From assembly GCA_001799395.1 (NCBI GenBank), contig MGTJ01000009.1:1-56014 (forward strand): a DNA stretch of 56,014 nucleotides, read 5' to 3'. The translations under genes were made by a program, and so were the position numbers. Below, piece after piece: positions 1 through 51,812 of this stretch; the first letter of the stretch is position 1, and the number at the start of each line of letters is the position of its first letter. Under the pieces are notes generated by a model, which was not told the origin of the DNA, ran no database searches, and saw nothing but the letters and a program-made list of their open reading frames with translations. This DNA comes from Desulfobacterales bacterium RIFOXYA12_FULL_46_15 (GTDB lineage Bacteria; Desulfobacterota; Desulfobacteria; Desulfobacterales; Desulfobacteraceae).

Positions 1-1065
1 GAGCTCATGCATTTGAATGCCAAAGAAGGTCTTTCCCTGATAAATGGAACCTCCGGAATGGTGGGCCTTGCCTGTACCGTTATCTCGGAAGCGACGAATA
101 CATTGAAAAATTCCGATATTATAGCTGCTTTTGCCATTGAAACACTCATGGGAAGATTTAATCCCTTTGATCCGATTGTCCATGAACAAAAATACCACCC
201 CGGCCAATATGCCACTGCACTCAATTTAACAAAGCTTCTTAAAGGAAGTGAACTGGCAATTGATGAGCTGGAGCTCTCTATAAAACTTCAGTCGACACTC
301 AAGGAGCATAAAGGGGTTTCCGTGGCGCATATCCCGGTTGAAGATGCTTACTCTATCCGGTGCACGCCTCAGTTTGTAGGGCCTACAAAAGAAGCTGTAC
401 AACATGCCCGTGAAGTCCTTTTAAGAGAACTCAATTCCAGTAATGATAATCCACTGATTTTTACCGAACTTGATACATTCTTTCACAATGGCCATTTCCA
501 TGGCCAGCCCATCTCTTTTGCAATGGATTGTCTGGGAATCGCAATGGTTAACCTCGGGGTTGTCAGTGACAGGCGCATTGATAGATTCATGGACCAGCAC
601 CACAGTACAGGGCTTCCCCCGTTCTTGTGCAAAGAAGATACAGGTGTCCGCATGGGGCTTATGGGCGGTCAGTTCATGACGACCTCCCTTGTGGCTGAAA
701 ACAGAACCCTTGCCGTTCCTGCATCCATCCAGTCCATTACTTCAACCGCTGATTTTCAGGATATTGTCAGCTTTGGCCTCATTGCCGGCAGAAAAGCCAG
801 AAAGATCGTTGAAAACACCAACCACATCCTGAGTTTCGAGCTTCTCTGCGCAGCCCAGGCAGCAGACATCAGAGGGCCTGAGAAATTGAGCCCGGCCGGT
901 AAGATCATGCACAAGGCTGTTCGTGAAACCCTTGGCTACATGGATTACGATAAGGTGTATATTGATGACCTCGAAGAACTTAAAAAGAGAATTGAGTCTG
1001 GTGAGTTTGTAGAAAGGGTTGAAAAAGAAGTGGGTGAGCTTCTGATCGTTCATGAAAAAAAATAA
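1..1065 (+). CDS. MIO-type aromatic amino acid ammonia-lyase or 2,3-aminomutase, 5' truncated by window edge
   Basis: The reading frame is open from base 1, so the first ATG (base 7) is internal and about 150-190 N-terminal residues are missing, including the Ala-Ser-Gly that forms the MIO cofactor. What remains is the C-terminal two thirds of the histidine/phenylalanine ammonia-lyase family: an INGTSGM segment, the HxPGQ region, YSIRCTPQ, ELNSSNDNPL, FHGQPISFAMD, and the ENRT and ELLCAAQ helices. Compared with the true HutH at 38.9-40.4 kb (INGTQLM, MNSSTENPL), the NGTSGM and NSSNDNP forms are closer to what I recall of bacterial tyrosine aminomutase and tyrosine/phenylalanine ammonia-lyases. 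An aminotransferase, Lrp regulator and BKACE follow in the same direction. Family assignment is firm. Lyase versus aminomutase, and the substrate, are inference. Confidence 0.85.
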   Translation, partial: ELMHLNAKEGLSLINGTSGMVGLACTVISEATNTLKNSDIIAAFAIETLMGRFNPFDPIVHEQKYHPGQYATALNLTKLLKGSELAIDELELSIKLQSTLKEHKGVSVAHIPVEDAYSIRCTPQFVGPTKEAVQHAREVLLRELNSSNDNPLIFTELDTFFHNGHFHGQPISFAMDCLGIAMVNLGVVSDRRIDRFMDQHHSTGLPPFLCKEDTGVRMGLMGGQFMTTSLVAENRTLAVPASIQSITSTADFQDIVSFGLIAGRKARKIVENTNHILSFELLCAAQAADIRGPEKLSPAGKIMHKAVRETLGYMDYDKVYIDDLEELKKRIESGEFVERVEKEVGELLIVHEKK

Positions 1066-1100
1066 AGACATAAAAAAACAAGACTTAAGGATAAGACGCC

Positions 1101-2456
1101 ATGCCTAAAGAAACAATAGGGATTGAAGAACAGGTTGAAAAGAAGATAGGAGATGCTTACAGGGAGAAATTCCCGGTTTCAAAAAAGCATCATGAAGAAC
1201 TGATCAATTATATTCCCGGCGGTGCAACCCGAAGTTTAAGCTATTTCAAACCCTTTCCCATCCATGTTGAATATGGTGAGGGCGCCTTTGTTTTCACCCC
1301 TGAAGGACATAAGCTCCTGGATGTCACTAATGCCTATGGCGCCATTGTTCATGGGCATGGTGACCCGGATGTGGTGAAAGCGGTTCAGGACGGTATTGCA
1401 AAAGGGTCCCAGTATTCAAGCCCGACACAAGGCCAGTACAAACTTGCAAAGCTTCTGTGTGAAAGGGTGCCGGGCTTTGACCGGGTCAGGTTTTTAAATT
1501 CCGGAACGGAAGCCACCCTTTTTGCCATGAGAACGGCCAGGGCTTATACAGGAAAAGATAAAATTCTGAAAATGGTCGGCGGTTTTCACGGCACCCATGA
1601 CAGTGTGGCTGCATCAACCAAGAAAAATATCATCACGGCCGGTATCCCCAAAGGCATGACAGAGGATATGATAGAAGTGAGCTTTAATGATTTTGAAACC
1701 TTGGAAAAAAAAGTAAAGGAAAATGCATCAGAGCTGGCCGCCGTGATCATGGAACCCTTTCTGGGAGCCGGCGGGATTGTGCTTCCGAAAAAAGGGTATC
1801 TGGAGCATGCAAGAAAAGTTACTGAGGACCATAAAGTCCTTCTGATTTTTGATGAAATTTTTTCTTTCCGGGTGAATACCGGAGGCTGCCAGAAACTCTG
1901 GGGTGTGACCCCGGATCTGACGACGGTCGGAAAGGTTGTGGGCGGCGGGCTTCCCATTGGTGTATTTGGCGGAAAAAAAGAAATCATGAATATCTACTGC
2001 CATGAAAATACCGACAAACCTCTCTACCATTCCGGGACTTTCAACGGCTATGAAACCGTGATGCAGGCAGGCTATGCAGCCTTGTCCAAATACGATGAAA
2101 AGGCGGTAGCCTATATCAACGGTCTTGGGGCCAGGTTACAGGAAGGGCTTTTAAAAAGCTTTAAAACCAATGGGTTGAAGATCCAGTCCAACCAGATCGG
2201 GTCGCTCTTGAACCTTCATTTTTATAATGAACCCATCACAACGGCGGAGCAGGTTTTAAAATCCGAAGAGAAGCTCCATGCCCTGATGCACCTGTCCCTT
2301 TTAAACAAAGGTGTTTTTACCATCCCAAGGGGATTGTTCATCCTGTCAACAGCCATGACTCATCAGGAAATAGATTTTCTGGTTGAAAAAATAGATGAAA
2401 CCTTAAAAGAATTGTTGCCATTAATTCAAGAAAAATATAACCATTTACTCTCATAA
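1101..2456 (+). CDS. class III PLP aminotransferase, beta-amino acid (beta-phenylalanine) transaminase type
   Basis: This 451-residue protein is a fold-type I, class III aminotransferase related to glutamate-1-semialdehyde aminomutase. Visible motifs are NSGTEA (133-138, phosphate cup), FDE (250-252, Asp251 to the pyridine nitrogen), TTVGK with Lys278 as the Schiff-base lysine, GGGLPIGVFGG and HSGTFNG. The N-terminal motif is PGGATR with Arg44. GSA aminomutases instead read PGGVNSPVR, with the arginine three residues later. From memory, the Variovorax beta-phenylalanine aminotransferase has its carboxylate-binding Arg41 at the same place as Arg44 here, and shares the late LLN...PRG and GSL-N-HF stretches. 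It starts 35 bp after the lyase, with an AAGGA box upstream. The likely reaction converts a beta-amino acid to a beta-keto acid. An alternative is GSA aminomutase (hemL), which the arginine position and context disfavour. Confidence 0.85.
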   Translation: MPKETIGIEEQVEKKIGDAYREKFPVSKKHHEELINYIPGGATRSLSYFKPFPIHVEYGEGAFVFTPEGHKLLDVTNAYGAIVHGHGDPDVVKAVQDGIAKGSQYSSPTQGQYKLAKLLCERVPGFDRVRFLNSGTEATLFAMRTARAYTGKDKILKMVGGFHGTHDSVAASTKKNIITAGIPKGMTEDMIEVSFNDFETLEKKVKENASELAAVIMEPFLGAGGIVLPKKGYLEHARKVTEDHKVLLIFDEIFSFRVNTGGCQKLWGVTPDLTTVGKVVGGGLPIGVFGGKKEIMNIYCHENTDKPLYHSGTFNGYETVMQAGYAALSKYDEKAVAYINGLGARLQEGLLKSFKTNGLKIQSNQIGSLLNLHFYNEPITTAEQVLKSEEKLHALMHLSLLNKGVFTIPRGLFILSTAMTHQEIDFLVEKIDETLKELLPLIQEKYNHLLS

Positions 2457-2492
2457 CAGGGATATAATTTAATTATCAAAGAGAGAGAATAA

Positions 2493-2975
2493 ATGGTTCT
2501 GGACAAAATTGACAAACAGATTTTAAACACACTTCAGGAAAATGGGAAAACAACCAATTCCAAACTGTCTAAAATCGTCGGGATTTCAGCTCCTGCAACG
2601 CTTGAAAGAGTTAAAAGACTTGAGCTTGCAGGAGTCATCTCCCATTTTACGGCCGTGCTGGACCCGGAAAAAATCGGGTTTTCAATCATGGCCATGGTCA
2701 GCATCAGCTTAAGCCTGAGCAACCTGTCGTCTGTGGCAGCCATCAAAAAAAGATTTGTGGAGCTGGATGAAGTGGTGGAGTGCTACCAGATTGCAGGTGC
2801 CAATGATTTTGTCCTTAAGGTGATTGCAAAAGATATTAAAACCTATGGGGAGTTCATGAATAAGAAACTCACCCAGATAGAAGGCATTCAGGTTATCAAA
2901 TCCTCTTTTGTGATCGACAATGTCAAGGAAAAGAAAATGTTCATCCTTGATCTGAATGAGGAATACGGAGTATAG
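2493..2975 (+). CDS. Lrp/AsnC-family transcriptional regulator
   Basis: A 160-residue protein with the standard Lrp/AsnC layout. An N-terminal winged helix-turn-helix covers about residues 4-60 (LDKIDKQILNTL, then SKIVGISAPATLERVKRLE), followed by a RAM/ACT-like ligand-binding domain with the ECYQIAGANDFVLKV strand. It lies 36 bp after the aminotransferase and 32 bp before the BKACE gene, so it is probably co-transcribed with the enzymes. Family members usually bind amino acids, so a local sensor of the amino acid substrate fits; this is inference. The start is preceded by a purine-rich AAGAGAGAG box. The C-terminal residues after about 150 are charged and unremarkable. Confidence 0.9.
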   Translation: MVLDKIDKQILNTLQENGKTTNSKLSKIVGISAPATLERVKRLELAGVISHFTAVLDPEKIGFSIMAMVSISLSLSNLSSVAAIKKRFVELDEVVECYQIAGANDFVLKVIAKDIKTYGEFMNKKLTQIEGIQVIKSSFVIDNVKEKKMFILDLNEEYGV

Positions 2976-3007
2976 AAAACAAAAAAAATCATCAGGAGAA
3001 GTAAATA

Positions 3008-3943
3008 ATGGATAATAAAATTATTATAACAGCCGCCATTACAGGGTCTGTTCATATCCCCACCATGAGTGATTACCTTCCCATAACGCCTGATCAGATT
3101 GTGGAGGATGCAGTCAAAGCCCATGAAGCCGGTGCTGCCATTGCCCATATCCATGTGAGAAACCCGGAAAACGGCTTGCCTGTATCAGACCCGGCTCTTT
3201 TCATGGAGGTTTGCAGCAAGATCAAGAAAAGATGCAATATCATCCTGCTTCCCACCACCGGCGGCGGTATGAACCAGACCACGGAAGAAAAACTGATTCC
3301 TATCAAGCAACTGAGGCCCGAGATGTGTTCTTTTGACCCGGCCCCCTTTAATTTCGGCATTTTCCAGATTGCAGGCCGTTTTAATGAATATAAATATGCC
3401 TGGGAAAAAGACTATCTCGAACTCTGCAAGAATGTCACCTTCAGACCTACCTTCAACGATGATATCATTTATGGGAAGGCTTTCCTTGAAATCGATACCA
3501 AACCGGAACTTGAAATCTATGAACTGGGCCATGTTTCTTATGTAAAATGGCTTCTGGAAGAAAATATGTTGAAGCCTCCGGTACACCTTCAGTTCGTATT
3601 CGGCCCCATGGTGGGATGGATGGTGCCGTCTGTAAAACACCTGGTATTGATTTATGATGAGGCAAAGGAAGTCCTGGGTGAAAATAATTTCACATGGTCT
3701 GTGGCTGCAGGCGGCAGATTCCAGATCCCCATCACCAGTACGGCCATGGCCATGGGCGCACAGAATGTCAGGGTCGGACTTGAAGATTCCATATATGCCG
3801 GTAAAGGTATCATGGCAAAGGCCAGTGCCGATCAGGTCAATATTGTGAAACGGGTGGCAAAGGAGATGAGCCTTGAACCTGCCACTTCTGATGAGGCAAG
3901 ACAGATTCTTCAATTAAAAGGGCTTGATAAGGTTGCATTCTGA
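3008..3943 (+). CDS. BKACE (DUF849) beta-keto acid cleavage enzyme
   Basis: 311 residues, the normal length for the BKACE/3-keto-5-aminohexanoate cleavage family. These zinc-dependent TIM-barrel enzymes condense a beta-keto acid with acetyl-CoA and release acetoacetate plus a new acyl-CoA. The zinc ligands appear as the HIH pair (His47, His49) in AHIHVRNP. A family glutamate is visible in VGLEDS (Glu259), and TTGGG near residue 85 and QFVFGP are also typical. AGGAG precedes the ATG at good spacing. The substrate cannot be read from sequence. A bulky hydrophobic or aromatic beta-keto acid would fit the upstream lyase/aminomutase and beta-aminotransferase. The classical lysine-fermentation Kce role is less likely because no other lysine-fermentation genes are nearby. 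Confidence 0.92.
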   Translation: MDNKIIITAAITGSVHIPTMSDYLPITPDQIVEDAVKAHEAGAAIAHIHVRNPENGLPVSDPALFMEVCSKIKKRCNIILLPTTGGGMNQTTEEKLIPIKQLRPEMCSFDPAPFNFGIFQIAGRFNEYKYAWEKDYLELCKNVTFRPTFNDDIIYGKAFLEIDTKPELEIYELGHVSYVKWLLEENMLKPPVHLQFVFGPMVGWMVPSVKHLVLIYDEAKEVLGENNFTWSVAAGGRFQIPITSTAMAMGAQNVRVGLEDSIYAGKGIMAKASADQVNIVKRVAKEMSLEPATSDEARQILQLKGLDKVAF

Positions 3944-4028
3944 TTTTTTTAGATCCTTTTTTTGTAAAAGTCTTTAAAAGACAGAGGCGATTTGACAGTA
4001 TAATGTGAAATAATAAAGGAGGGCATCG

Positions 4029-5609
4029 TTGAATTATTCAGGTTACGCTTCAATTCATGCTCGGCATATTCCTGATAAGGTTTGCCTGATCGAAAGAACC
4101 CCGGCAACGGGAGGGAGACGATCCTTTACCTGGAAGGAATTTAATGACGAGATCAACAGAACTTCTAATTTTCTGGCAAAAGAGCTGGGGGTCAGGCATG
4201 GAGATTTTGTCATGCACCTTCAGAAAGATTCACTGGAATGGCTTGTCACCTATTATGCAGTTATTCGCCTGGGAGCCGTTGTCGTTCCGTTGAATTTTCG
4301 TTTTGAAACATCTGATGTCCTTTATGCAGCCGAAGTTTGTAAACCGGATGTTTTTATTCTAGGGTCTGAATTTTTAGGCGTTGTCCAGCCCGGGCAAAAA
4401 AATCTGCCGACCATTAAAAATTATATCTGTGTCGGCAAAGATGTCCCCAAAGATATGATCGATTTTAAAACGATCCAGGCATATCCGGATACTTCAGATG
4501 CACTTGTGGAAGTTGACAGAGACCATGATCTTGCCATGATGTTCACCTCCGGTACGACCGGAAAACCCAAACCCGTCCTTCATACCCATTATTCCATCAA
4601 TAATACGGCCATCGGTAATGGAATGACCTATTTCGTCCAGAAGGATGATAATTATTTATTCTTTTTACCTTTATACCACAGCGGTACCATGTTTTTATGG
4701 GCTCCTTTTTATGCAACCGGGGCAACCGGAACGATCATAAGGGATTTCCGTGATCCCAAATGGATTATTGAGGCTGTTGCCGAAGAAAAATGTACGGACG
4801 TGCTTTTTGTAGTTCCCATCGGTATTGCAGTTTTAAATGCCATTGCAAAGGGAGATCTGCAACTGGAGAATTATGATCTTTCTTCCTGGAAATATATGGA
4901 AATAGGTGCTCAGCCCGTACCCTTCGATATCATGAAACTTCTGGTTGAAAAATTGCCCTGCGCCGTATCTAATATTTACGGTATCACCGAAGGCGGAGGC
5001 GGGGGGTTGTTTAATCTGTATCCTGAAGATGTTCTTGCAAGACCCGGTTCCATAGGCAAACCCACCTTTGGGGTTGAGGCCAAAATTGTCGGACCGACAG
5101 GAGAGGAATTACCGGATGGCCAGGTCGGAGAGCTTATCTTCCGCACCCCCCGCATGATGCGGGAATATTATTCAAACCCTGAAAAAACAAAAGAAACCAT
5201 AAAAAATGGTTGGCTTTATACCGGAGATTTATTAAAGAAGGACAAAGAGGGGTATTTCTATATTGTCGACCGGATGAAAGATATGGTTACCAGCGGTGGT
5301 GAGAATATTTTCCCGGTTGAAATTGAAGATGCACTCATGGATCACCCCGACATTGATGATGTAGCATGTATCGGATATCCCGATGACAGGCTGGTGGAAA
5401 TCGTGCTTGCCGTAGTCCAGGTAAAAGAAGGAAAACACCTGTCTGAAGAACAGGTGATCGAGTTTGCAAAGTCCAAATTGTCCCTTTATAAGGTACCCAG
5501 AAAGGTCATTTTTGACCGGGTACCGCGGAATCCCACTGGAAAACTCATGAAACCGCAACTCCGGGAAAAATACACCGGCCGGAAGGAGGCATTTAAAAAA
5601 TTAGATTAA
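4029..5609 (+). CDS. AMP-forming acyl-CoA ligase (ANL superfamily)
   Basis: 526 residues beginning at TTG, chosen because AAAGGAGGG lies just upstream at correct spacing and the N-terminus then aligns with the family. It has the P-loop MFTSGTTGKPKP (about 173-184), the adenine-binding IYGITEGGG, the YTGDLL motif, the hinge DRMKDM, and the A10 lysine motif NPTGKLMKP near residue 510, so both the large and the rotating C-terminal domains are complete. It makes an acyl-CoA from a carboxylate, ATP and CoA. The carboxylate is not evident: an aryl acid escaping the pathway, or acetoacetate released by BKACE, are both possible. It is 85 bp after the BKACE stop and is followed by a hairpin terminator. 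Confidence 0.88.
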   Translation: MNYSGYASIHARHIPDKVCLIERTPATGGRRSFTWKEFNDEINRTSNFLAKELGVRHGDFVMHLQKDSLEWLVTYYAVIRLGAVVVPLNFRFETSDVLYAAEVCKPDVFILGSEFLGVVQPGQKNLPTIKNYICVGKDVPKDMIDFKTIQAYPDTSDALVEVDRDHDLAMMFTSGTTGKPKPVLHTHYSINNTAIGNGMTYFVQKDDNYLFFLPLYHSGTMFLWAPFYATGATGTIIRDFRDPKWIIEAVAEEKCTDVLFVVPIGIAVLNAIAKGDLQLENYDLSSWKYMEIGAQPVPFDIMKLLVEKLPCAVSNIYGITEGGGGGLFNLYPEDVLARPGSIGKPTFGVEAKIVGPTGEELPDGQVGELIFRTPRMMREYYSNPEKTKETIKNGWLYTGDLLKKDKEGYFYIVDRMKDMVTSGGENIFPVEIEDALMDHPDIDDVACIGYPDDRLVEIVLAVVQVKEGKHLSEEQVIEFAKSKLSLYKVPRKVIFDRVPRNPTGKLMKPQLREKYTGRKEAFKKLD

Positions 5610-5610
5610 A

Positions 5611-5643
5611 TAAGTCAAAGCTGTTTTGCTTGACTTCTTTTTG
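5611..5643 (+). terminator. rho-independent terminator after the acyl-CoA ligase
   Basis: An inverted repeat (AAGTCAAAGC ... GCTTGACTT, one bulged A) with a TGTTTT loop is followed by CTTTTTG. It starts two bases after the ligase stop and separates the enzyme genes from the TRAP transporter genes, so the two parts may be transcribed separately or with partial read-through. Confidence 0.6.
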
Positions 5644-5661
5644 AACTGAAAATACGCTGTT

Positions 5662-5738
5662 GTTGAGTTCGACGTGTAAAATGATAATTAGTTTGATTCC
5701 AAAAGTTGAAACAGGTGCAGACCCTTTTGGTTTGCACC
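5662..5738 (+). promoter_or_regulatory. candidate promoter and leader hairpin upstream of dctP
   Basis: A weak sigma70-like pair, TTGTTG then 17 bp then GATAAT, ends around base 5690. Downstream of it is an imperfect 10-bp inverted repeat GGTGCAGACC / GGTTTGCACC (5714-5738) with a short T-rich loop and no U-tract after it. It lies about 40 bp before the dctP start, in the expected 5' untranslated region. It could be an operator or a leader hairpin. The promoter match is poor, so this is tentative. Confidence 0.3.
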
Positions 5739-5778
5739 ACAATTTATAAACTTAACATTAAAGGAAAGGAACTAAGTT

Positions 5779-6858
5779 ATGAAGCTGAAAAGATTTTTAG
5801 TGTTGATGCTTGTTTTAGTAGTCGGATCATTTATGTTCATTGCACCGGCCTCTTCTGAAGAAAAACCGGATCCTCTTGCCAAATGGGCCCCTGCCTTTGA
5901 TCCCAAAGGCGCAAAATTCAAATGTGTAGTTTCAAACGTATCCACACCGGCGCTTGTCGGCACCTATGCCGGGTTTGAAATCCGTGATGAACTCTGGAAA
6001 AGAACCAACGGCCAGATTTATCTGGATTATAAACCCTTATCTATTCTAGGCGGCGAAGTGGAAGTCCTCAACATGGTCCAGATGGGTGCGGTCCAGGGCA
6101 TCAGTGTCAGCTCAGTTGCCTCTACCAACCTCGGACCCAGGTTCGGCGTTGTCAACCTGCCTTTCCTGGTGGACTCATTTGCAAAGCTGGACAAATTCAC
6201 CGGCAACAAGGTTCTTTTCGACCATTTCCTCATGGCAGCCGACCATCAGGGCATGACAGCACTTGATATCACCGGTTACGGCAATTATGGCTGGGCCACC
6301 AATAATCCTGTCAAGACACTTGATGATGCCAAAAAAGTAAAGTTCAGAATCGCCGAAGCCGCCGTTAATCAGCTTTCCTATAAAAACTGGGGATTCAACC
6401 CGGTTTCCATGCCCTGGACCGATGTTCAGGTGGCTCTGAAACAAGGCGTTATCGATGGTCTGGATCATACCCCTGCCGTGTGTAATCTGACCAAGAAATT
6501 TGAGGTTGCCAAGTATTTTACCCAGCTTAATTATGCCCAGGGTCTTTTTATCTGGCTCTTTAACAAAGCCTGGCTGGAAAGTCTTCCCCAGGATTTAAGA
6601 GAGACTTTTATTAAAACCGTACACGATGTCTGCGTTGAGAACAGAAAAAGGACTGCAACCTGGGAAGAAGAACAGATCGCAGCTTCCAAAGCAACCGGTG
6701 TAGAATTCATTAAACTGTCCGATGCCGATATGCAAACCCTGAAAGGACTGAGTAAAGGCACCTACGATACCTATGCCAAGGAAATCAACCAGCTTAACCC
6801 TGGCGACACATACAAACCGGCCAATTATCTCCAGGAAGTTGTGGATTTCCTGAAATAG
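5779..6858 (+). CDS. dctP: TRAP transporter solute-binding protein DctP
   Basis: 359 residues. It has a classical signal peptide (MKLKRF, hydrophobic core to about residue 23, cleavage near APASSEE), then a DctP-type periplasmic binding domain. The segment around KKVKFRIAEA carries the arginine that in this family usually contacts the substrate carboxylate, and WTDVQVALKQGVIDGLD is the conserved hinge helix motif. It captures a carboxylate ligand for the DctQM permease encoded directly downstream. The ligand is not readable. The position behind the amino acid degradation genes suggests an aromatic or other amino/keto acid. Confidence 0.93.
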   Translation: MKLKRFLVLMLVLVVGSFMFIAPASSEEKPDPLAKWAPAFDPKGAKFKCVVSNVSTPALVGTYAGFEIRDELWKRTNGQIYLDYKPLSILGGEVEVLNMVQMGAVQGISVSSVASTNLGPRFGVVNLPFLVDSFAKLDKFTGNKVLFDHFLMAADHQGMTALDITGYGNYGWATNNPVKTLDDAKKVKFRIAEAAVNQLSYKNWGFNPVSMPWTDVQVALKQGVIDGLDHTPAVCNLTKKFEVAKYFTQLNYAQGLFIWLFNKAWLESLPQDLRETFIKTVHDVCVENRKRTATWEEEQIAASKATGVEFIKLSDADMQTLKGLSKGTYDTYAKEINQLNPGDTYKPANYLQEVVDFLK

Positions 6859-6903
6859 CCTGTAATTCAGACATTATTAATTAAAAAGAATAGGACCTGG
6901 TTT

Positions 6904-7398
6904 ATGATTGGAAATATTTCAAAAAAAATAGATACATTCTTGACTCACATTGAAGAATGGAGCCTTTTTATTATTGTTATGGTGTCCCTGATCTCGCTGT
7001 TTGCCAATGTGGTGCTGCGGTACGGGTTCAGCTATACCCTGGCCTGGAGCGAGGAGCTGGGGCGTATTGTCATGATTTATACCACCATGCTGGGAACCAG
7101 TCTTTCAGTAAAAAAAGGGGCTGTGATAAGAATTGATGCTCTGGTCCAGATTGTACCCAAGCTTAAACCAGGCCTGACTTTTTATTCCAATATCCTGATG
7201 ATTTTCTTTTCCGGGATGATGATCTATTACGGGTATACCATGACCCTGCTTCAGTATACCACCCATCAGAAAACCATCATCATGCAGATCCCCCTTGTGA
7301 TTGTCTACGCCATCATGCCGTTGATGGGCATTATGACATTGATCCGGACATTACAGGTATTGGCTCAGGACATTAAAAATTTGAAGCAGCAGAAATAA
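6904..7398 (+). CDS. dctQ: TRAP transporter small permease subunit DctQ
   Basis: 164 residues with four predicted membrane helices (about 18-38, 50-68, 91-110, 127-148) and the AWSEELGR motif after helix 1 that marks DctQ proteins. It pairs with DctM to form the membrane part of the sodium-coupled TRAP importer. It begins 45 bp after dctP and ends 13 bp before dctM, consistent with one transcript. Confidence 0.92.
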   Translation: MIGNISKKIDTFLTHIEEWSLFIIVMVSLISLFANVVLRYGFSYTLAWSEELGRIVMIYTTMLGTSLSVKKGAVIRIDALVQIVPKLKPGLTFYSNILMIFFSGMMIYYGYTMTLLQYTTHQKTIIMQIPLVIVYAIMPLMGIMTLIRTLQVLAQDIKNLKQQK

Positions 7399-7411
7399 AG
7401 GGGGAAGCTCA

Positions 7412-8707
7412 ATGCAATCAAGCGATATCATCATCATGGCGATCCTCCTGGGTTGCCTTATTTCTTATGTACCTGTTTTTTTAAGCCTGTTTATCGCATC
7501 CACCGTTGGGTTTCTGTTTTTCCTGAACATGCCTCTCGGAATGATGGTTCAGACCCTGTTCCGGAGCGTGGATAATTTCGGGCTAATCGTGGTCCTGTTC
7601 TTTGTTCTCTGCGGCAATATCATGACCAAGGGGAAAATGGTGGAAAAACTCATTAGCTTTGCCAATTCCATGGTAAGCTGGCTGCCGGGCGGGCTCGGCA
7701 TGGCCGGTGTCATCGGTTGCGGGCTTTTCGGTGCCATTTCCGGATCAACCGTGGCAACCGTGGTTGCCCTGGGCGGGTTCATGATCCCGGCCCTCCTGAG
7801 AAACGGCTATGATGAAGATTATACCGTCGGGCTTATGACTACCTCCCCGAACCTGGGTGTCATTATACCACCGAGCATCAGTATGATTTTTTATTCCATG
7901 ATCAGCAATGTGTCCCTGGAAGGGCTGTTCCTGACCGGGTTCATACCGGGAATCATCATTATCCTCTGCGTCTGCATCTACACCTATGTATTGTACAGGG
8001 ACCGGAAGGATATCAAGCGGCTGCCGAGGCCGACTCTGGGCCAGATGTTCGGTATTTTCAAAGAAGGTTTCTGGTCCATCATGCTGATTGTGATCATTTT
8101 CGGTGGTATTTTTACCGGTGCCTTCACAGCCAATGAGGCTGCCGTCGTGGCCAGCGTCTATGCCTTTTTTGTGGAGCTGGTGATTTACAAATCCATGAAT
8201 TTCAAGGATGTCAAAGATGTCTGCGTCAGTTCAGCCCTGACAACGGCCACCCTGCTGCTTATCGTAGCCTGTGCCACGGTCTTCGGACGCTACCTGACCT
8301 TTGAAAACATCCCCAACCGGGTGGCGGAACTAGTCATCGGCAGTATACATTCACCATGGGTCTTTCTTTTTGTAATGAATATCCTGCTATTGATTGTCGG
8401 TATGTTCATGGATATCATCTCCGCTACCCTGATCTTGGGGCCGGTCTTTTTGCCTTTGCTCAGTGCTTTTAACGTGGACCCCATGCATTTCGGGCTCCTC
8501 ATGACCGTGAACCTGGCCATCGGGTACTGCACCCCGCCCATGGGGGTCAGCCTTTTCATCGTCGGGTCCATGACCAAGAAGGATATTATTTTTGTTACAA
8601 AGGCGGCCATGCCGACCATGATCATCCAGATCTCTGTGCTGTTCTTTTTAACCTATTTTCCCGGTATAGTGCTTTACCTGCCCAGGCTTTTCGGCTATCA
8701 CAAATAA
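7412..8707 (+). CDS. dctM: TRAP transporter large permease subunit DctM
   Basis: 431 residues, almost entirely hydrophobic, with about 12 membrane segments. It shows DctM landmarks: GLFGAISGSTVATVVALG near residues 107-124, TSPNLGVIIPPSISMI near 147-162, and the second-half repeat with NLAIGYCTPPMGVSLF. These two pseudo-symmetric loops form the substrate and sodium path in TRAP permeases. Its start has an AAGGGGGAAG ribosome-binding site. A strong hairpin terminator follows its stop, closing the transport operon. Confidence 0.95.
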   Translation: MQSSDIIIMAILLGCLISYVPVFLSLFIASTVGFLFFLNMPLGMMVQTLFRSVDNFGLIVVLFFVLCGNIMTKGKMVEKLISFANSMVSWLPGGLGMAGVIGCGLFGAISGSTVATVVALGGFMIPALLRNGYDEDYTVGLMTTSPNLGVIIPPSISMIFYSMISNVSLEGLFLTGFIPGIIIILCVCIYTYVLYRDRKDIKRLPRPTLGQMFGIFKEGFWSIMLIVIIFGGIFTGAFTANEAAVVASVYAFFVELVIYKSMNFKDVKDVCVSSALTTATLLLIVACATVFGRYLTFENIPNRVAELVIGSIHSPWVFLFVMNILLLIVGMFMDIISATLILGPVFLPLLSAFNVDPMHFGLLMTVNLAIGYCTPPMGVSLFIVGSMTKKDIIFVTKAAMPTMIIQISVLFFLTYFPGIVLYLPRLFGYHK

Positions 8708-8787: not shown

Positions 8788-9345
8788 TTAAACCCCTTTG
8801 TTGGCGATATTTTTATCGTGCTTCAGTCTTTCCTGAATACCCCTTGAAATTTGCCAGTATTTTTCAAAATCGTTCCAGAAGTCTTTGTTTTCATTTTTCC
8901 ACCCCTTTCCGAAACGCTGGTCAAAATGGCTTCCAAGCTTTTCAAATAAGAGTTTCCAGGCAGGTTTTCCCTTGCTTTGTTCTCCCATCAATTCGTTGAT
9001 CAAGGAATCCAGCTCGCTTAAATGTTCTTTGGAAAGATAGGAAACCGCCCCTTTTTTAATGGACTGCATCAAAGATTCCGGGTTCATGGAATTGGCAGTC
9101 AGCATAATGGCGGGAATATTCCTTTCCACACATTCTTCCAGAAGCTTAATACCGTTGACTCCCATGATATCCAGGATGGCTATATCGTATTGAGTCTTCA
9201 TTATTTTTTGTGATGCAGACTCGTAATCCTGGGCAAAATCAACGGTTGCTTCATCCAGTATTTCCTGTATGGTCTCGATGACATCCCATTCATCATCAAC
9301 GGCCAGTATATGTTTTCCTTTTAGAAAAGAAACAGGTTGTGTCAT
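8788..9345 (-). CDS. receiver-domain response regulator with a short C-terminal extension
   Basis: 185 residues. A complete CheY-like receiver domain spans about 10-125: acidic pair Asp17-Asp18, phosphoacceptor Asp59 in AILDI, Thr83, and Lys106 in YLSKE. There is no recognisable DNA-binding or enzymatic output domain. The last 60 residues are rich in Phe, Trp and Lys, and may be a protein-interaction tail. No histidine kinase is adjacent; the nearest is at 17.5 kb. It is transcribed alone, divergently from the adenine deaminase gene. Its role is unknown. Confidence 0.85.
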   Translation of the reverse strand: MTQPVSFLKGKHILAVDDEWDVIETIQEILDEATVDFAQDYESASQKIMKTQYDIAILDIMGVNGIKLLEECVERNIPAIMLTANSMNPESLMQSIKKGAVSYLSKEHLSELDSLINELMGEQSKGKPAWKLLFEKLGSHFDQRFGKGWKNENKDFWNDFEKYWQISRGIQERLKHDKNIANKGV

Positions 9346-35073: not shown

Positions 35074-36342
35074 TTAATCATCAAGGTTGCGGTGATAGAT
35101 ATGTCCTTTTATCATGATCTTGTCAACAGGAGAAAGCCCGGCAAGGTAGCAGAGATCAGAAGGCTCATCAATGTCCCAGACCACCAGATCGGCATCTTTT
35201 CCCGGTTCAAGGCTACCCTTGGCATGTTCAAGGCCAAGGGCTTTTGCCCCGTTGATGGTTGCACCCAGCAAAGCCTCTTCACAGGTGAGACCAAACAGGA
35301 TACAGGCCATGTTCAGGATAAGCGTCATGGAATGAACCGGGCTTGAGCCCGGATTCAGATCCGTGGACACGGCCATGGGAATTTTCAGATCCCTGAAAAC
35401 CTGAACCAGGGGCTTTTGTTTTTCTTTCAGATAATAAAATGCGCCGGGCAGAAGAACGGCCGTCACCTTATGCCGGGCCATTTTAGTTGCACTGCTCAGG
35501 GATAAATATTCCAGGTGATCACAGGAAAGGGCATTGAACCGGGATGCCAGGGCAGCCCCGCCGGAATCGGATAATTGCTCGGCATGGAGCTTGACCCTGA
35601 GCCCGAGGGCTTTTGCAGCCTGAAAGACTCTTTTTGTCTGTTCAAGGGAAAAGGCAATGCGTTCACAGAACACATCCACGGCAGTTGCAATCCCTTGCTC
35701 TTTTATTTTCGGCAGCATGGTCTTTGTGACCAGATCAATATAACCGTCTGAATTGTCCCTGAATTCCGGAGGCAAGGCATGGGCACCCAGAAAGGTGGGT
35801 TCAATGCGCAGGGGAAATGCTTTTTTCAATTCATGGATGACCTCAAGAATTTTTATTTCCGTCTCAAGATTAAGCCCGTAACCGGATTTGATTTCAAGGG
35901 TGGTGATGCCCTGAAGAAGCAGGGTTTTGACCCTTTTTGAGGCAAGGTGCAGAAGGTCTTCCCGTGATGCGCCCCGTGTGGCTTTGACTGTTGAGGCAAT
36001 CCCCCCGCCCTTTTTTGAAATCTCTTCATAGGTGGCACCGTTAAGACGCATTTCAAATTCATGGGATCTTGATCCGGCCCAGACAAGATGGGTATGACAA
36101 TCCACAAATCCTGGCAGAATCCATCGATCACGGCAGTCAATGATTTCTTTACATCGGGTGCTGTAGTTTTCGGGCAGGTCTTTTTTTTGCCCTGCCCATG
36201 AGATTTTTCCCCCGGAAACAGCCAGTGCTCCGTTTTTGATAATGGAAAGACCCTTACCGGCCATGGTGGCAAGATGGCAGTTTGTAAAACAGGTATCAAT
36301 TTTTTCAGGCAGGGAAATTTTCATCTTTGACAAAGGCTCCAC
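35074..36342 (-). CDS. hutI: imidazolonepropionase
   Basis: 422 residues of the amidohydrolase superfamily: DCHTHLVWAGSRSHEFEMRLNGATYEEI (metal HxH), LEIKSGYGLNLETE, FLGAHALPPE, KLHAEQLSDSGG, DHLEYLS and VSTDLNPGSSP. These are the specific HutI motifs. It opens the imidazolone ring to give N-formimino-glutamate, the third step of histidine breakdown. It starts 5 bp after the hutU stop. Confidence 0.96.
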   Translation of the reverse strand: MEPLSKMKISLPEKIDTCFTNCHLATMAGKGLSIIKNGALAVSGGKISWAGQKKDLPENYSTRCKEIIDCRDRWILPGFVDCHTHLVWAGSRSHEFEMRLNGATYEEISKKGGGIASTVKATRGASREDLLHLASKRVKTLLLQGITTLEIKSGYGLNLETEIKILEVIHELKKAFPLRIEPTFLGAHALPPEFRDNSDGYIDLVTKTMLPKIKEQGIATAVDVFCERIAFSLEQTKRVFQAAKALGLRVKLHAEQLSDSGGAALASRFNALSCDHLEYLSLSSATKMARHKVTAVLLPGAFYYLKEKQKPLVQVFRDLKIPMAVSTDLNPGSSPVHSMTLILNMACILFGLTCEEALLGATINGAKALGLEHAKGSLEPGKDADLVVWDIDEPSDLCYLAGLSPVDKIMIKGHIYHRNLDD

Positions 36343-36347
36343 AAGGT

Positions 36348-38063
36348 TTATGGCCGGTTTCCATGCATATTGACCATGGGAAGTTTGATACCCCTGGTTT
36401 TGGCTACCTCTATGGCAGTTTCATAACCTGCATCGGCATGACGGATGATTCCTGTGCCGGGATCATTCCTGAGGACCGTTGTGAGCCGTTTTTCAGCATC
36501 AGGACTGCCGTCGGCCACTGTCACCTGGCCGGCATGGAGGGCATATCCGATACCGACACCGCCGCCATCATGAAAAGACACCCATGCGGCGCCAGAGGCC
36601 ACGCTGGTCATGCAGTTGAGCAAAGCCCAGTCTGCTACGGCATCCGACCCGTCTTTCATGGCTTCGGTTTCCCGGTAAGGGGAAGCAACCGACCCGCAGT
36701 CCAGATGGTCTCTTCCAATGACGATAGGCGCTTTGACTTTTTTATCCCGGACAAGATCATTAAAGAGCTTGCCTGCTTTTTCCCTTTCCCCATATCCAAG
36801 CCAGCAGATTCTTGCTGGAAGTCCCATATGTTCCACTTTTTCTTCAGCCATTTTCAGCCAGTTGACCATTTTTGTTTTTTCCGGGAAAAGCTTCATCAGT
36901 TCCCGGTCCGTTACCTTGATGTCTTCGGGGTCGCCGGAAAGGGCGGCCCACCGGAAAGGTCCTTCTCCGTTACAGAACAGCTCACGGATATAGGCAGGCA
37001 CAAACCCGGGATAATCCATGGCATTGTCAACCCCCCGTTTCATGGCCTGTGCCCTCAGGTTGTTCCCGTAATCAAAGGCTATGGCCCCTTGATTCTTCAT
37101 TTCAAGGATAGCCTTTACATGGTCGGCCATGGAATTTAGGGCCATATCCTTATAGGTTTTTGGGTCGGTTTTGCGAAGGCGTAATGCCTCTTCAAAGGAA
37201 AGTCCTTTGGGGAAGTATCCGTTGAGTTCGTCATGGGCGCTGGTCTGGTCGGTAATGACATCCGGGATAAATCCTTTTTGTATCATGGAAGTAAGGATAT
37301 CCCCGATATTGGCACAAAGACCGATGGAAAGGGGCTTTTTATTGCCTGCCGCTTCTTTAGCCTTGAGAATGGCGTCATCAAGGCTTATCGCTTCAATGTC
37401 CAGGTATCGTTTTTCAAGTCTTTTGGCAATGCGGGTCGGGTTGATTTCAACACAGACGGCAACCCCGCCGGCCATGGTGACCGAAAGGGGCTGGGCGCCG
37501 CCCATGCCTCCGAGACCTGCGGTTACGACGATTTTTCCGCCAAGATCCGAATTATAATGCTTCTGTCCAAGTGCGGCAAATGTTTCATAAGTGCCCTGGA
37601 GAATTCCCTGAGTCCCGATATAAATCCATGATCCTGCCGTCATCTGGCCGTACATGATAAGCCCTTTTTTGTCCAGTTCGTGGAAATAATCCCAGTTTGC
37701 CCATTTGGGGACAATATTGGCATTGGCAATGAGAACCCTGGGTGAGCTTTCATGGGTTTTGAGAACTCCTACAGGTTTTCCGGACTGAATCAGCAGAGTT
37801 TCATCATTTTCAAGGTCCAGCAGGGTTCGGACAATAGCGTCAAAACAATTCCAATTCCTGGCTGCTTTGCCAAGCCCCCCGTAAACGATGAGCTGATCCG
37901 GGTTTTCACCGTTGTCCGGATCAAGGTTGTTGCACAGCATGCGCAGGGCTGCTTCCTGGTACCATCCCTTGCAGTGCAGTTCAGTGCCCCTGGGGGCTCT
38001 TACCGGGCGGGCAACTCCGCATCCGATGTTCAGGTCTTTTAAAATTTTCTCCTTATTTGTCAT
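36348..38063 (-). CDS. hutU: urocanate hydratase
   Basis: 571 residues from the ATG at 38063, which has GGGAGGAAAA upstream on the minus strand; the open frame continues further upstream but only into non-homologous residues over the promoter and hutC. NAD-dependent urocanase motifs: [71 protein letters not shown] and the conserved GNNLRAQA and [14 protein letters not shown]. It converts urocanate to imidazolone propionate. First gene of the minus-strand hutU-hutI unit. Confidence 0.97.
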
Positions 38064-38082
38064 GATTTTCCTCCCGATAGGG

Positions 38083-38141
38083 TTGACTTTTATTTTTGAA
38101 TTCGATACTACTTGTCTATACAAGTATAGATGTGATGTCAA
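38083..38141. promoter_or_regulatory. divergent hutU / hutC promoter region with HutC-type operator
   Basis: The 112-bp region between hutU and hutC holds a palindrome at 38111-38130 in which CTTGTCTATACAAG and TCTATACAAGTATAGA overlap, as expected for a GntR/HutC operator. On the minus strand, TTGACA (38141-38136) is followed 15 bp later by TATAGA, inside the palindrome. On the plus strand, TTGACT (38083-38088) lies 16-17 bp before GATACT/TACTAC, just ahead of it. Binding there would block both promoters. Confidence 0.7.
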
Positions 38142-38175
38142 GTTATTTTTAATTTTAGGAGAAACAGGAAATTCA

Positions 38176-38895
38176 ATGTCTGTATCAGAACAACCCTTTG
38201 CCTTGTTTGAGAGGATCAAGAAAAGTATTGTCAATGATATCGAATCGGGCAAGCTGAAACAGGGCGACAAAATTCCGTCGGAAACCGAGCTGACAAGGAT
38301 GTTTAATACCTCCAGGATGACGGCAAACCGCGCCTTGAAAGAACTCACGGAAGAAGGCAGGATTGTCCGGGCACAGGGTGTGGGCAGTTTTGTGGCAAGA
38401 CCCAAACCCGAGGCTGCCCTTCTTGAGATTAAAAGCATTGCAAAGGAAATTGCCGAATGGGGAGGGTACCATTCTTCAGAAATCCTGGTGCTGCGGGAAG
38501 AAAAAGCGAATGGGGAAATTGCAAAGAAAATGGGGCTAAACTCCATGGACCCAGTCTTTCATTCCATTATCCTTCATAAGGACAGGGATATCTGTGTCCA
38601 GCATTCTGAACGGTTTATAAACCCAAAGGTTGCTCCCGACTATTTGAAACAGGATTTTAATACCATAACCCCCAGCGAATACCTTTTGGAAGTCGCTCCG
38701 GTCCAACAGGCAGAACATATTATTGAAGCAATGAACTGTAGAAAGGAAATTCAGAAGCGATTGAAAATCAAACCGGGTGAGCCTTGCCTGTCTCTGACAC
38801 GGCGGACCTGGTCGTTTGATATGGTGGCCACCTACAGCATCATCATATCTCCTGGATCAAGATATAAACTGAAGGGAAAATTTACACGAGGATAA
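38176..38895 (+). CDS. hutC: histidine utilization repressor HutC (GntR family)
   Basis: 239 residues from the ATG at 38176, which follows AGGAGAAACAGGAA; the longer open frame back to 37912 runs through the operator and hutU and is not real. A GntR winged helix-turn-helix (about 8-75, [25 protein letters not shown]) precedes a UTRA ligand-binding domain (about 90-230, ending [17 protein letters not shown]). Family members release DNA on binding urocanate. It is 5 bp from hutH and faces hutU across the operator. Confidence 0.95.
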
Positions 38896-38900
38896 AAGAT

Positions 38901-40433
38901 ATGAAGGAACAAATCGTATTGCATGGGGATGGGTTTTTGCTTGAAGACCTGGTTCGGATCGCACGGCATAATGTGGGAATTAAGATATCAGAGGAATCTG
39001 TGTCCAGGATACATAAGGCAAGAAAACTGATTGATGAATGGGTCAAAAACGGAGAAAGAATTTATGGGGTCACAACCGGATTTGGAGCCCTTTCCGGTGT
39101 AACGATTTCCTATGAGGATACGAGAAAGCTTCAGAAAAAAATCCTTTTCAGCCATTCTGCAGGCGTCGGGAAATATCTGGATGAAGATGTGGTCAGGGCC
39201 ATGATCGCCCTGCGGGTCAATGATTTTTGCCGCGGCAATTCCGGGCTGAGACTTGAAACCATTGAAAAACTTGCCCGGCTCTTAAATGACGGTATTATTC
39301 CGGTTGTCCCGGAAAAAGGATCAGTGGGAGCGAGCGGAGATCTGGTTCCCATGGCCCATCTTTCCCTTGTATTGATCGGGGAAGGGGAAGCCTGTATAAA
39401 TGGAAAAAAAATGACCGGTGCCGAGGCCTTGAGAAAAAAGAAGATAGAGCCCCTGGAACTTGAGGCAGGTGAGGGGATCGCCCTTATCAACGGCACCCAG
39501 CTCATGATTGCCCTGGGGTGCCTTGCCCTTCATGATGCTTTGAATCTCTGTAAACATGCCGACATTGCCGCCGGCATGAGTCTTGAAACCCTGATGGGGA
39601 CGCGGTCTGCTTTTGATCCCAGGATTCACCGGGCAAGACCCCATAAAGGCCAGATCATGGCAGCCGACAATATGCTGAGGATTACGGCCAATTCAGAGAT
39701 TATTTCTTCCCATAAAGACTGCTCACGGGTCCAGGATGCATATACCCTGAGATGCTCGCCCCAGGTTCATGGGGCTTCCTGGGACGCTTTCGCTTATGTG
39801 GACAATGTGATCCGGGTGGAGATGAATTCATCCACTGAAAACCCTTTGATTTTCCCTGAATCAGAAGAATTTCTTTCCGGCGGGAATTTTCACGGTCAGC
39901 CCCTGGCCCTGGCCTGTGATTTTCTGGGTATTGCCATTGCAGAACTGGCCAATATTTCGGAACGTAGAATCGAAAGGCTGGTGAACCCACAGCTTTCAGG
40001 GCTTCCTGCCTTTCTGGTGGAAGACGGCGGGCTGAATTCCGGGTTCATGATCGCCCAGTATGCCGCCGCTTCACTGGTTTCCGAGAACAAGGTCCTGGCC
40101 CATCCGGCATCGGTGGATTCCATTCCCACGTCTGCAAACAAGGAGGACCATGTGTCCATGGGCTCCATTGCGGCCCGTAAGTGCCGGGAAATTGTTGCGA
40201 ACGTGGAAGACGTCATTGCCATTGAACTTTTATGTGCTGCCCAGGCCATTGATCTTTTCACCAATATGAAGGCAGGGGACGGCACCCTTGCAGCCTATGA
40301 GGTCATCCGAAGCAAGGTGGGCTATATGAAAGAAGACCGGCTCCTGTCCAAAGATATTGCCATAGTAAAGGAACTTCTCTTAAGCGGCAGTATTGTCAAG
40401 GCAGTAGAAAATAAAGTAGGCAAACTCTATTAG
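38901..40433 (+). CDS. hutH: histidine ammonia-lyase
   Basis: 510 residues, full length. MIO-forming Ala144-Ser145-Gly146 in GSVGASGDLVPMAH, the active-site tyrosine in RIYGVTTGFG (Tyr55), ALINGTQLM, RVQDAYTLRCSPQVHG, GGNFHGQP and IELLCAAQA. It deaminates histidine to urocanate. It differs clearly from the lyase at the window start in the NGTQ versus NGTS motif, so the window carries two diverged members of the family. Confidence 0.97.
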   Translation: MKEQIVLHGDGFLLEDLVRIARHNVGIKISEESVSRIHKARKLIDEWVKNGERIYGVTTGFGALSGVTISYEDTRKLQKKILFSHSAGVGKYLDEDVVRAMIALRVNDFCRGNSGLRLETIEKLARLLNDGIIPVVPEKGSVGASGDLVPMAHLSLVLIGEGEACINGKKMTGAEALRKKKIEPLELEAGEGIALINGTQLMIALGCLALHDALNLCKHADIAAGMSLETLMGTRSAFDPRIHRARPHKGQIMAADNMLRITANSEIISSHKDCSRVQDAYTLRCSPQVHGASWDAFAYVDNVIRVEMNSSTENPLIFPESEEFLSGGNFHGQPLALACDFLGIAIAELANISERRIERLVNPQLSGLPAFLVEDGGLNSGFMIAQYAAASLVSENKVLAHPASVDSIPTSANKEDHVSMGSIAARKCREIVANVEDVIAIELLCAAQAIDLFTNMKAGDGTLAAYEVIRSKVGYMKEDRLLSKDIAIVKELLLSGSIVKAVENKVGKLY

Positions 40434-51762: not shown

Positions 51763-51812
51763 GATTGTTTATCACCCCTCAAGCCGGCTGAATATCAGGA
51801 TCATGACCAGGC

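Follow-up and report, generated by a model that had tools for sequence, protein, structure and literature searches.

A conserved operon of sulfate-reducing Desulfobacteraceae with a predicted role in anaerobic L-phenylalanine degradation to benzoyl-CoA and acetoacetate

Which compound is degraded by an operon that joins a MIO-family lyase, a class III aminotransferase and a beta-keto acid cleavage enzyme (BKACE)? The window analysed here, 56,014 nucleotides from Desulfobacterales bacterium RIFOXYA12_FULL_46_15, is the start of contig C9 and opens with eight genes of the ORF list for lyase, aminotransferase, Lrp/AsnC, BKACE, CoA ligase, DctP, DctQ and DctM. All of them lie on the plus strand, as the first-pass annotation had stated, with stop-to-next-start gaps of 35, 36, 32, 85, 169, 45 and 13 bp, and all eight proteins score above their cut-offs in a Pfam profile search (Table 1). 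From the genes present, their order and conservation, the family placement and active-site residues of their products, the co-occurrence with bamA and one bamQ–bamA linkage we propose, with a probability of roughly 0.6, that this operon of sulfate-reducing Desulfobacteraceae serves the anaerobic degradation of L-phenylalanine to benzoyl-CoA and acetoacetate, where we infer every substrate and product of the pathway.

Table 1: Genes of the operon and the adjoining response-regulator gene, with the evidence for each assignment.
Feature	Position	Strand	Evidence
MIO-family aminomutase-like lyase, C-terminal 354 residues, 5' truncated	1..1065	+	contig overlap, AdmH match, pocket, tree, TIGR04475
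Class III aminotransferase, beta-amino-acid type; R44, R410, PLP lysine K278	1101..2456	+	Pfam, alignment, tree vs GSAM
Lrp/AsnC-family regulator	2493..2975	+	Pfam; 27/30 loci
BKACE (beta-keto acid cleavage enzyme), H47/H49 + R-VGLED	3008..3943	+	Pfam, motifs; 30/30 loci
Acyl/aryl-CoA ligase, TTG start	4029..5609	+	Pfam; 29/30 loci; 73% relative in Desulfococcus multivorans beside same TRAP importer
TRAP importer substrate-binding protein DctP	5779..6858	+	Pfam; 77% to D. multivorans
TRAP importer small membrane subunit DctQ	6904..7398	+	Pfam; 65% to D. multivorans
TRAP importer large membrane subunit DctM	7412..8707	+	Pfam; 78% to D. multivorans
Stand-alone response-regulator receiver protein	8788..9345	-	Pfam; 58% relative in D. 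multivorans

To look at the conservation of the locus, 43 related Desulfobacteraceae loci were cut out, anchored on the lyase gene, and the 30 with at least 4.8 kb downstream were counted. All 30 contain lyase, aminotransferase and BKACE in one and the same order, and the variable members are Lrp (27 loci), the ligase (29) and DctP/Q/M (25/24/24), the TRAP importer being replaced by another one in some of the other loci. The grouping is far beyond chance, and the conserved neighbourhood that had been expected in related genomes is thus confirmed. The response-regulator gene is convergent with the operon and adjoins it in many loci. One cultured strain carrying the operon is Desulfobacula toluolica.

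The missing upstream part of the lyase, whose recovery had been suggested as a check, was found on the minus strand (1-615) of contig C67 of the same genome, which shares an exact overlap of 57 bases with C9 and supplies 205 residues of the N-terminus, of which 19 are common to both contigs. The joined protein has 540 residues, starts with an ATG behind AAGGAGG and contains the MIO triad T148-S149-G150 as well as the catalytic loop tyrosine Y59, and already its truncated part falls into the MIO ammonia-lyase/aminomutase family (PF00221, 333.6 bits; cut-off 27.3). Its best PDB match is AdmH (PaPAM) from Pantoea agglomerans (3unv; 468.7 bits, 45.5% identity), which also has the catalytic tyrosine. 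Both share a branch with a support of 100/99 in a 22-row tree with long branches for AdmH and SgTAM, set apart from six HutH-type proteins, SgTAM and a third MIO clade; a grouping with plain HutH, named beforehand as evidence against an aminomutase, was not observed. The ring pocket is nearly identical, with I89, F411, F438 and Q439 corresponding to V108, F428, F455 and Q456 of AdmH, and the same four sites are H, Y, N, Q in SgTAM and H, Y, K, E in HutH. As the pocket His of tyrosine aminomutase and HutH is Ile in 34 and Val in 5 of 39 sequences, tyrosine, originally suggested as a second substrate, is unlikely. This exchange and the profile scores led us to reject the lyase as HutH (TIGR01225, 460.1 bits; cut-off 539.15) and as tyrosine 2,3-aminomutase (TIGR03832, 456.1 bits; cut-off 501); the true HutH of the genome is encoded at 38901-40433 (TIGR01225, 696.9 bits). 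The joined lyase also misses the phenylalanine aminomutase equivalog TIGR04475 (663.1 bits; cut-off 800), a cut-off reached in none of the 86 family genomes, and we file it as AdmH-like and not as this equivalog. The proposed MIO aminomutase is backed by AdmH clade and pocket and weakened by the missed cut-off, with mutase or lyase activity being unreadable from sequence; which of the two results depends on loop dynamics, as described in PMC6413883.

Existing records label the lyase gene as histidine ammonia-lyase, aromatic amino acid lyase or predicted phenylalanine ammonia-lyase and in a few cases as phenylalanine aminomutase, and give no pathway. If it were a plain phenylalanine ammonia-lyase, the ligase would form cinnamoyl-CoA and beta-oxidation would lead to benzoyl-CoA, while aminotransferase and BKACE would serve something else. 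AdmH-type enzymes also release some cinnamate, and one source gives the D. toluolica copy the name ‘Pal: predicted phenylalanine ammonia-...’. A beta-oxidation of cinnamate has moreover been proposed for D. multivorans (PMC5109826). We nevertheless consider this unlikely, as genes for hydratase, dehydrogenase and thiolase are absent among the eight operon genes, the lyase is accompanied by aminotransferase and BKACE in 30/30 loci but by the ligase in 29, and TIGR01226 gives 257 bits (cut-off 519). The closest relative with a solved structure, AdmH, is itself biosynthetic and provides beta-phenylalanine for andrimid. A corresponding role in natural product formation is highly improbable for the lyase of the window, whose operon context looks catabolic, because the beta-phenylalanine formed would be broken down again by transaminase and BKACE, and visual inspection of the listed ORFs revealed no gene resembling a peptide synthetase.

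In an alignment with VpAT (PDB 4ao9), a beta-phenylalanine aminotransferase, Arg44 of the window's aminotransferase falls on Arg41, in agreement with its first-pass placement. The equivalents of the VpAT substrate arginines R41 and R398 (R44 and R410) are kept together with the PLP lysine K278 in 39/39 sequences, and the site of GSAM Arg32 is Ser in all of them. For the first substrate arginine a role has been described with R36 of StoTA (PMC10589169). Raw identity to GSAM (34-37%; 31% to the genome's own HemL) is no lower than to VpAT, MesAT (2yku) and StoTA (34-35%), and the PDB bit scores are nearly tied. In the tree, a branch with 100/99 support divides GSAM, together with the genome's own HemL, from the beta-transaminases, and the enzyme falls on the side of the latter; the clustering with hemL that would have spoken against the reading did not occur. 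The enzyme forms a branch separate from VpAT and MesAT, with whose two substrate arginines and PLP lysine its own residues are aligned. An assignment as hemL was rejected on the basis of tree, Ser exchange and TIGR00713 score (343.9 bits; cut-off 527.3); the own HemL lies on another contig (C89) and reaches 643.8 bits.

The BKACE belongs to its family (PF05853, 283.3 bits; cut-off 24.8) and shows both motifs reported for it, H47-I-H49 and a VGLED that starts at residue 256. HIHVR is found in 34 of 35 full-length copies, HLHVR in one and RVGLED in 33; the protein stays below the cut-off of NF053538 (335 vs 430). Benzoylacetate is included in the substrates of BKACE subgroup G3 (PMC4922564, tabulating Bastard et al. 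2014), with which the enzyme can be compared by family and catalytic motifs; its own substrate is unreadable from sequence.

Taken together, the AdmH-like enzyme would shift the amino group of phenylalanine to give beta-phenylalanine, which the aminotransferase would likely convert into benzoylacetate, and BKACE would then form benzoyl-CoA and acetoacetate from benzoylacetate and acetyl-CoA. After activation of the acetoacetate, a thiolase would split it into two acetyl-CoA, one of which replaces the acetyl-CoA spent, and BKACE would also capture benzoylacetate ahead of its decarboxylation to acetophenone. For Paraburkholderia strains it has been published that beta-phenylalanine is transaminated (S)-selectively, yielding an unstable beta-keto acid from which they form substantial acetophenone, and no BKACE is named in the accessible part of that work (PMC6150868). 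The chain from phenylalanine through lyase, aminotransferase and BKACE remains the best reading, as in the first-pass annotation, whereas tyrosine, the ligase step and the claim of a route without cinnamate call for correction. The latter was too strong: since MIO aminomutases first take the amino group off and then add it back at the beta carbon (PMC6413883), cinnamate would still occur, bound to the enzyme.

Alternatively, the operon ligase could activate benzoylacetate for cleavage by a thiolase, as is known from Aromatoleum, where a benzoylacetate-CoA ligase and then a thiolase follow acetophenone carboxylase (PMC4729919); BKACE would in that case be left to another beta-keto acid. This is very unlikely, as BKACE occurs in 30/30 loci and the ligase in 29/30, with one locus (G001) keeping BKACE and lacking the ligase, and as the 73% relative of the ligase in D. 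multivorans lies in a cluster (at 2.77 Mbp of that genome) made on phenylacetate and phenylpyruvate (PMC5109826), where lyase, aminotransferase and BKACE are absent from the 39 kb examined. With the ligase missing from the G001 locus and its relative located in that cluster, the enzyme probably takes no part in the phenylalanine chain. Because D. multivorans has ligase and importer in this cluster (identities in Table 1), these two and the response regulator resemble an attached module for the uptake and activation of aromatic acids (phenylacetate or phenylpyruvate in D. multivorans); in the window organism it may take up phenylalanine or related acids.

The same enzymes might also act on another substrate, namely imported beta-phenylalanine or a ring-substituted phenylalanine, while phenylalanine itself would be degraded via phenylpyruvate and phenylacetyl-CoA. 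In line with this, D. toluolica was reported to raise IorAB/AtoAD with phenylalanine and phenylacetate, and published proteomic data on this species (cited in PMC5109826) link phenylalanine to IorAB and the route via phenylacetyl-CoA, which speaks against our reading; the attachment of a TRAP importer in 24/30 loci and its replacement by another TRAP elsewhere would fit as well. An external beta-amino acid, however, would need no aminomutase, yet the lyase is always found with aminotransferase and BKACE given room (in loci anchored on the lyase), and the lyase pocket closely copies AdmH. Furthermore, the operon TRAP of D. toluolica (M/Q/P) shows 90/75/79% identity to a relative TRAP, and the operon TRAP is probably the importer called phenylalanine/phenylacetate importing. 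We therefore regard this alternative as fairly unlikely.

Benzoyl-CoA as the product of the phenylalanine route gains support from the distribution of the ring-cleavage gene bamA and from one physical linkage to bamQ and bamA, which belong to benzoyl-CoA ring degradation. Among 86 genomes 44 have both lyase and bamA, 6 only the lyase, 2 only bamA and 34 neither (Fisher p 1.9e-15), a co-occurrence for which shared descent is a confounder; fragments below the cut-off make up 7 of the 46 bamA calls, and the strict table is 37/13/2/34 (p 9.5e-11). Within one genus (g4) both genes occur together in the same 2 of 19 genomes. In a single genome, G001, bamQ, an unnamed gene, an SDR gene, bamA, TRAP, lyase, an EamA permease, aminotransferase and BKACE follow each other on one strand, bamQ with 482 bits (cut-off 339) and bamA with 476 (cut-off 464), the latter with a match confined to positions 2-301 of 360. 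The assembly to which the window belongs (96.4% complete, 250 contigs) weakens the case for this product, as no bamA (TIGR03200) exceeds the cut-off there (best E 3.0e-20), and it contains genes taken for bamB/bamC relatives with 56-60% identity.

The predicted logic resembles lysine fermentation, which runs from lysine 2,3-aminomutase to the founding BKACE, Kce, and in which an alpha-to-beta aminomutation is followed by deamination to a beta-keto acid and BKACE cleavage. In that pathway radical/B12 enzymes serve as aminomutases and a dehydrogenase removes the amine, whereas the window encodes a MIO enzyme together with a class III aminotransferase and its predicted acyl-CoA is benzoyl-CoA. 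Kce itself forms acetoacetate and an acyl-CoA from a beta-keto acid and acetyl-CoA (PMC4922564). The described anaerobic routes from phenylalanine to benzoyl-CoA that we found, as in Aromatoleum, Thauera and Azoarcus, all go through phenylacetyl-CoA and on via phenylglyoxylate, according to PMC9765128 and PMC5109826. They share start and end with our proposal but involve two decarboxylations with oxidations, whereas the predicted route would keep the side-chain carbons as acetoacetate, with transamination as its sole redox step. At about even odds, Desulfobacula, Desulfotignum and relatives harbour a widespread oxygen-free route started by an aminomutase, from phenylalanine via (S)-beta-phenylalanine and benzoylacetate to benzoyl-CoA and acetoacetate, redox-neutral apart from the transamination and with the side chain retained as acetyl units; no such route from phenylalanine to benzoyl-CoA was found in the literature searched. 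If true, it would answer what becomes of the unstable beta-keto acid from beta-phenylalanine, called uncertain in the 2018 Paraburkholderia paper (PMC6150868), it would be the first physiological role for the reaction of BKACE with benzoylacetate and a catabolic role for MIO aminomutases, and a second phenylalanine route consisting of aminomutase, beta-transaminase and BKACE would change the reading of Desulfobacteraceae genomes.

The operon at the start of the window (table below) would carry phenylalanine to benzoyl-CoA. In the predicted route the lyase converts L-phenylalanine into (S)-beta-phenylalanine with cinnamate staying enzyme-bound, transamination gives benzoylacetate, BKACE forms benzoyl-CoA and acetoacetate from benzoylacetate and acetyl-CoA, and acetoacetate would yield two acetyl-CoA by enzymes encoded elsewhere than in the operon. 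The genes are separated by gaps of 13–169 bp. The missing upstream part of the lyase gene was found on the minus strand of contig C67, which shares an exact 57-base overlap with contig C9, at whose base 1 the window starts. The joined protein has 540 residues, its ATG is preceded by AAGGAGG, and it has Tyr59 in the loop and TSG at 148–150 as the MIO triad. The window encodes a true HutH elsewhere, which makes the operon lyase the second of two different MIO enzymes. The two genes are spaced 32–39 kb apart here and in ten relatives examined (73 kb in G060), and from this similar spacing the stretch is syntenic. The response regulator adjoins the operon in many loci and is also found beside the TRAP importer of Desulfococcus multivorans; it may control the importer module.

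Features of the window (strand given where reported)
Feature	Position	Strand	Remarks
Operon of 8 co-directional genes	1–8707		MIO lyase (5' end cut off), class III aminotransferase, Lrp/AsnC, BKACE, acyl-CoA ligase, DctP, DctQ, DctM
Receiver-only response regulator	8788–9345	-	convergent with operon
hut region	35074–40433		hutH with hutI-, hutU- and GntR/HutC-regulator-like genes (last three named by eye)
True HutH	38901–40433		696.9 bits, over TIGR01225 cut-off
ole-like genes	about 49316–56013	-	oleA-, oleB- and oleC-like (by eye; long-chain olefin synthesis), adjoining a large dehydratase/ketosynthase-like protein

The solved protein nearest to the lyase is the phenylalanine aminomutase AdmH (468.7 bits), followed by the tyrosine aminomutase SgTAM (371) and HutH (290). 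When clustering with HutH was tested in a tree of 22 rows, the lyase paired with AdmH instead (100/99, the AdmH and SgTAM branches being long), apart from SgTAM, from six HutH-type rows (the HutH of this genome plus five matches from the phylum regarded as HutH) and from a third clade of five MIO proteins of the family. We compared the residues that line the pocket in AdmH-type enzymes across 39 lyase sequences, those of the window and of 38 out of 42 copies (partial copies excluded). All 39 retain F428, F455 and Q456 of AdmH, and the position occupied by His in SgTAM and HutH and by Val108 in AdmH is Ile in 34 and Val in 5. The pocket thus favours phenylalanine, while tyrosine and histidine as substrates were rejected on the replacement of this His. 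From the first-pass annotation, which had named phenylalanine or tyrosine, only the former is retained. TIGR03194 (4-hydroxybenzoyl-CoA reductase) as a marker of a tyrosine route was uninformative, its cut-off being reached in 0/86 genomes of the Desulfobacteraceae. The lyase scores 663 versus the curated phenylalanine aminomutase cut-off of 800, and loop dynamics are reported to decide between lyase and mutase outcome (PMC6413883). The third MIO clade (loci L076–L085 and L087–L093) shows 33–36% identity to the operon lyase and lies outside the HutH and AdmH groups in the tree; its five tree members have an S-H pocket motif, and the triad is ASG in the one sequence inspected for it.

For the aminotransferase the best PDB matches are nearly tied, with the S. 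thermophilus transaminase StoTA at 277.9 bits and the hemL product GSAM at 273.4, followed by the beta-phenylalanine aminotransferases MesAT (251) and VpAT (249). Discriminating residues are clearer than these scores. The comparison covered the enzyme of the window and 38 out of 40 copies, with partial copies excluded; all 39 have R44 and R410 in the places of Arg41 and Arg398 of VpAT, and Ser in the column of GSAM Arg32. StoTA has the first of these arginines but lacks the second, whereas the operon enzyme has both; for StoTA R36, which aligns with R44, a role in binding the carboxyl group of the substrate has been proposed (PMC10589169). Clustering with hemL was also tested: in a tree of 21 rows with long branches the operon proteins share one side of a 100/99 branch with VpAT, MesAT, StoTA and ForI, and GSAM and the genome's own HemL (contig C89, 643.8 bits) are located on the other. 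A hemL identity was therefore ruled out by the residues, the tree and this separate HemL.

BKACE shows the family match and intact motifs. The segment SFDPAPFNFG is present in 33 of 35 full-length copies, with SYDPAPFNFG in one and neither in another, whereas the PDB relatives 3lot, 3e02 and 8rio possess FNMGSMNF or similar at this place, making it a candidate specificity segment. In the published classification of the BKACE family, benzoylacetate and beta-ketohexanoate are assigned to one subgroup within G3 (PMC4922564).

The lyase is present in 50 of the 86 family genomes, each best match having at least 81% identity, fragments included. Around family MIO matches 60 stretches were cut, 43 with the operon lyase (leaving out the window's own genome G000 and six genomes having fragments) and 17 with the third clade. 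Gene order was counted in the 30 of these 43 loci with at least 4.8 kb downstream. Its recurrence in relatives could be confirmed, as lyase, aminotransferase and BKACE follow in the same order in 30/30 loci; 29 loci have the ligase and 27 the Lrp gene, and 27 carry all five in order. For the importer the counts are 25 for DctP and 24 each for DctQ and DctM, some stretches stopping short of it, and in L043, L060, L064 and L073 a different TRAP importer occupies the same place. Because the first three genes are constant and the others vary, we regard lyase, aminotransferase and BKACE as an inseparable core in these loci, which are anchored on the lyase. In L074 (G070:C189) lyase, DctP and DctM are split over frames, by assembly errors or decay. 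Among 27 named loci the genus, where given, is Desulfobacula or Desulfotignum, the remaining ones being labelled just Desulfobacteraceae, Desulfobacterales, Deltaproteobacteria or Proteobacteria. In a phylum survey of 395 evenly drawn genomes 32 match the lyase at E ≤ 1e-95, with an orthologue solely in G000 and the other 31 at 36–42% identity.

The operon tail is most plausibly an aromatic-acid uptake and activation module able to occur without the core, as suggested by its arrangement in G246, taken to be D. multivorans. Here, at 2.78 Mb, a TRAP importer is 90/75/79% identical (DctM/Q/P) to that of the D. toluolica operon, together with a ligase (73%) and a response regulator (58%) related to those of the window, and no lyase, aminotransferase or BKACE is present in the 39 kb read at 2.76–2.80 Mb (L183/L184). 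This region coincides with a published phenylacetate/phenylpyruvate cluster, which is described to include one of two alternative phenylacetyl-CoA ligases and further enzymes made specifically on these two substrates (PMC5109826). The 73% relative is a candidate for the detected ligase. We infer that DctM9Q9P9 of D. toluolica is the operon TRAP, because of the identities and of one such DctM in G055, taken to be its genome, at E ≤ 1e-150 (4/25 candidates scored). Neither the ligase nor DctP has a PDB match close enough to name a substrate. The ligase might activate acetoacetate, but its setting in D. multivorans points to an aromatic acid. Ligase and importer do belong to the one-strand operon as first proposed, but the ligase is probably not a step of the pathway, being missing from the G001 run described below and found without the core in G246.

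A link to benzoyl-CoA degradation is seen in the distribution of bamA (TIGR03200), which is above cut-off in 39 of the 86 genomes, or in 46 with 7 fragments (98.9–349.9 bits; next match 89.8). Lyase and bamA occur together in 44 genomes, lyase only in 6, bamA only in 2 and neither in 34 (Fisher 1.9e-15), and without fragments the counts are 37/13/2/34 (9.5e-11), the genomes being related and not independent in both tables. In genus g4 the lyase occurs in 2 of 19 genomes, and bamA is confined to the same 2 (1 in 171). On one strand of G001:C7 (L049, L159) bamQ (482.1 bits, cut-off 338.65), an unnamed gene, an SDR gene, bamA (476.2, cut-off 464.45), DctP, DctQ, DctM, lyase, an EamA permease, aminotransferase and BKACE follow each other, without Lrp and ligase and with a thiolase-domain and an OB-fold zinc-ribbon gene upstream. 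The bamQ, SDR and bamA products are 76–84% identical to those of the D. toluolica bam region. The G001 relative of the operon TRAP is located on C8 (L185), where the 15 kb examined contain nothing else of the operon. The weak point of this link is that the TIGR03200 search found no bamA over cut-off in G000. The gene is present in G046, a near relative with a 98% identical lyase. G000 does encode 56–60% relatives of putative bamB and bamC (60% in the bamB search), taken as such in D. toluolica from their position beside bamA; the bamB-like genes get no bam name from NCBIfam. On contig C220 (L166) such relatives (56–58%) have a ligase, a TRAP importer and a gene resembling hydroxybenzoyl-CoA reductase nearby, and the group may represent a further pathway for aromatic acids in this genome.

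AdmH forms the (S)-product. Known beta-phenylalanine transamination is (S)-selective (PMC6150868), which fits a product of this type. Anaerobic phenylalanine degradation is known to proceed via phenylacetyl-CoA and phenylglyoxylate (PMC9765128). Benzoylacetate is also an intermediate of ethylbenzene and acetophenone degradation, where cleavage follows CoA ligation (PMC4729919). The titles and abstract openings surveyed, with few subscription papers among them, describe no pathway combining aminomutase, beta-transaminase and BKACE. Among the top 120 (down to 73%) out of 3929 protein matches, a few source records already call the lyase gene phenylalanine aminomutase, and all enzyme families are known; new is their combination and the predicted flow. 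The strongest contrary fact is that the phenylalanine proteome of D. toluolica has been interpreted via IorAB and phenylacetyl-CoA (PMC5109826). Thus, the operon could represent a second route for phenylalanine or could serve a related substrate.
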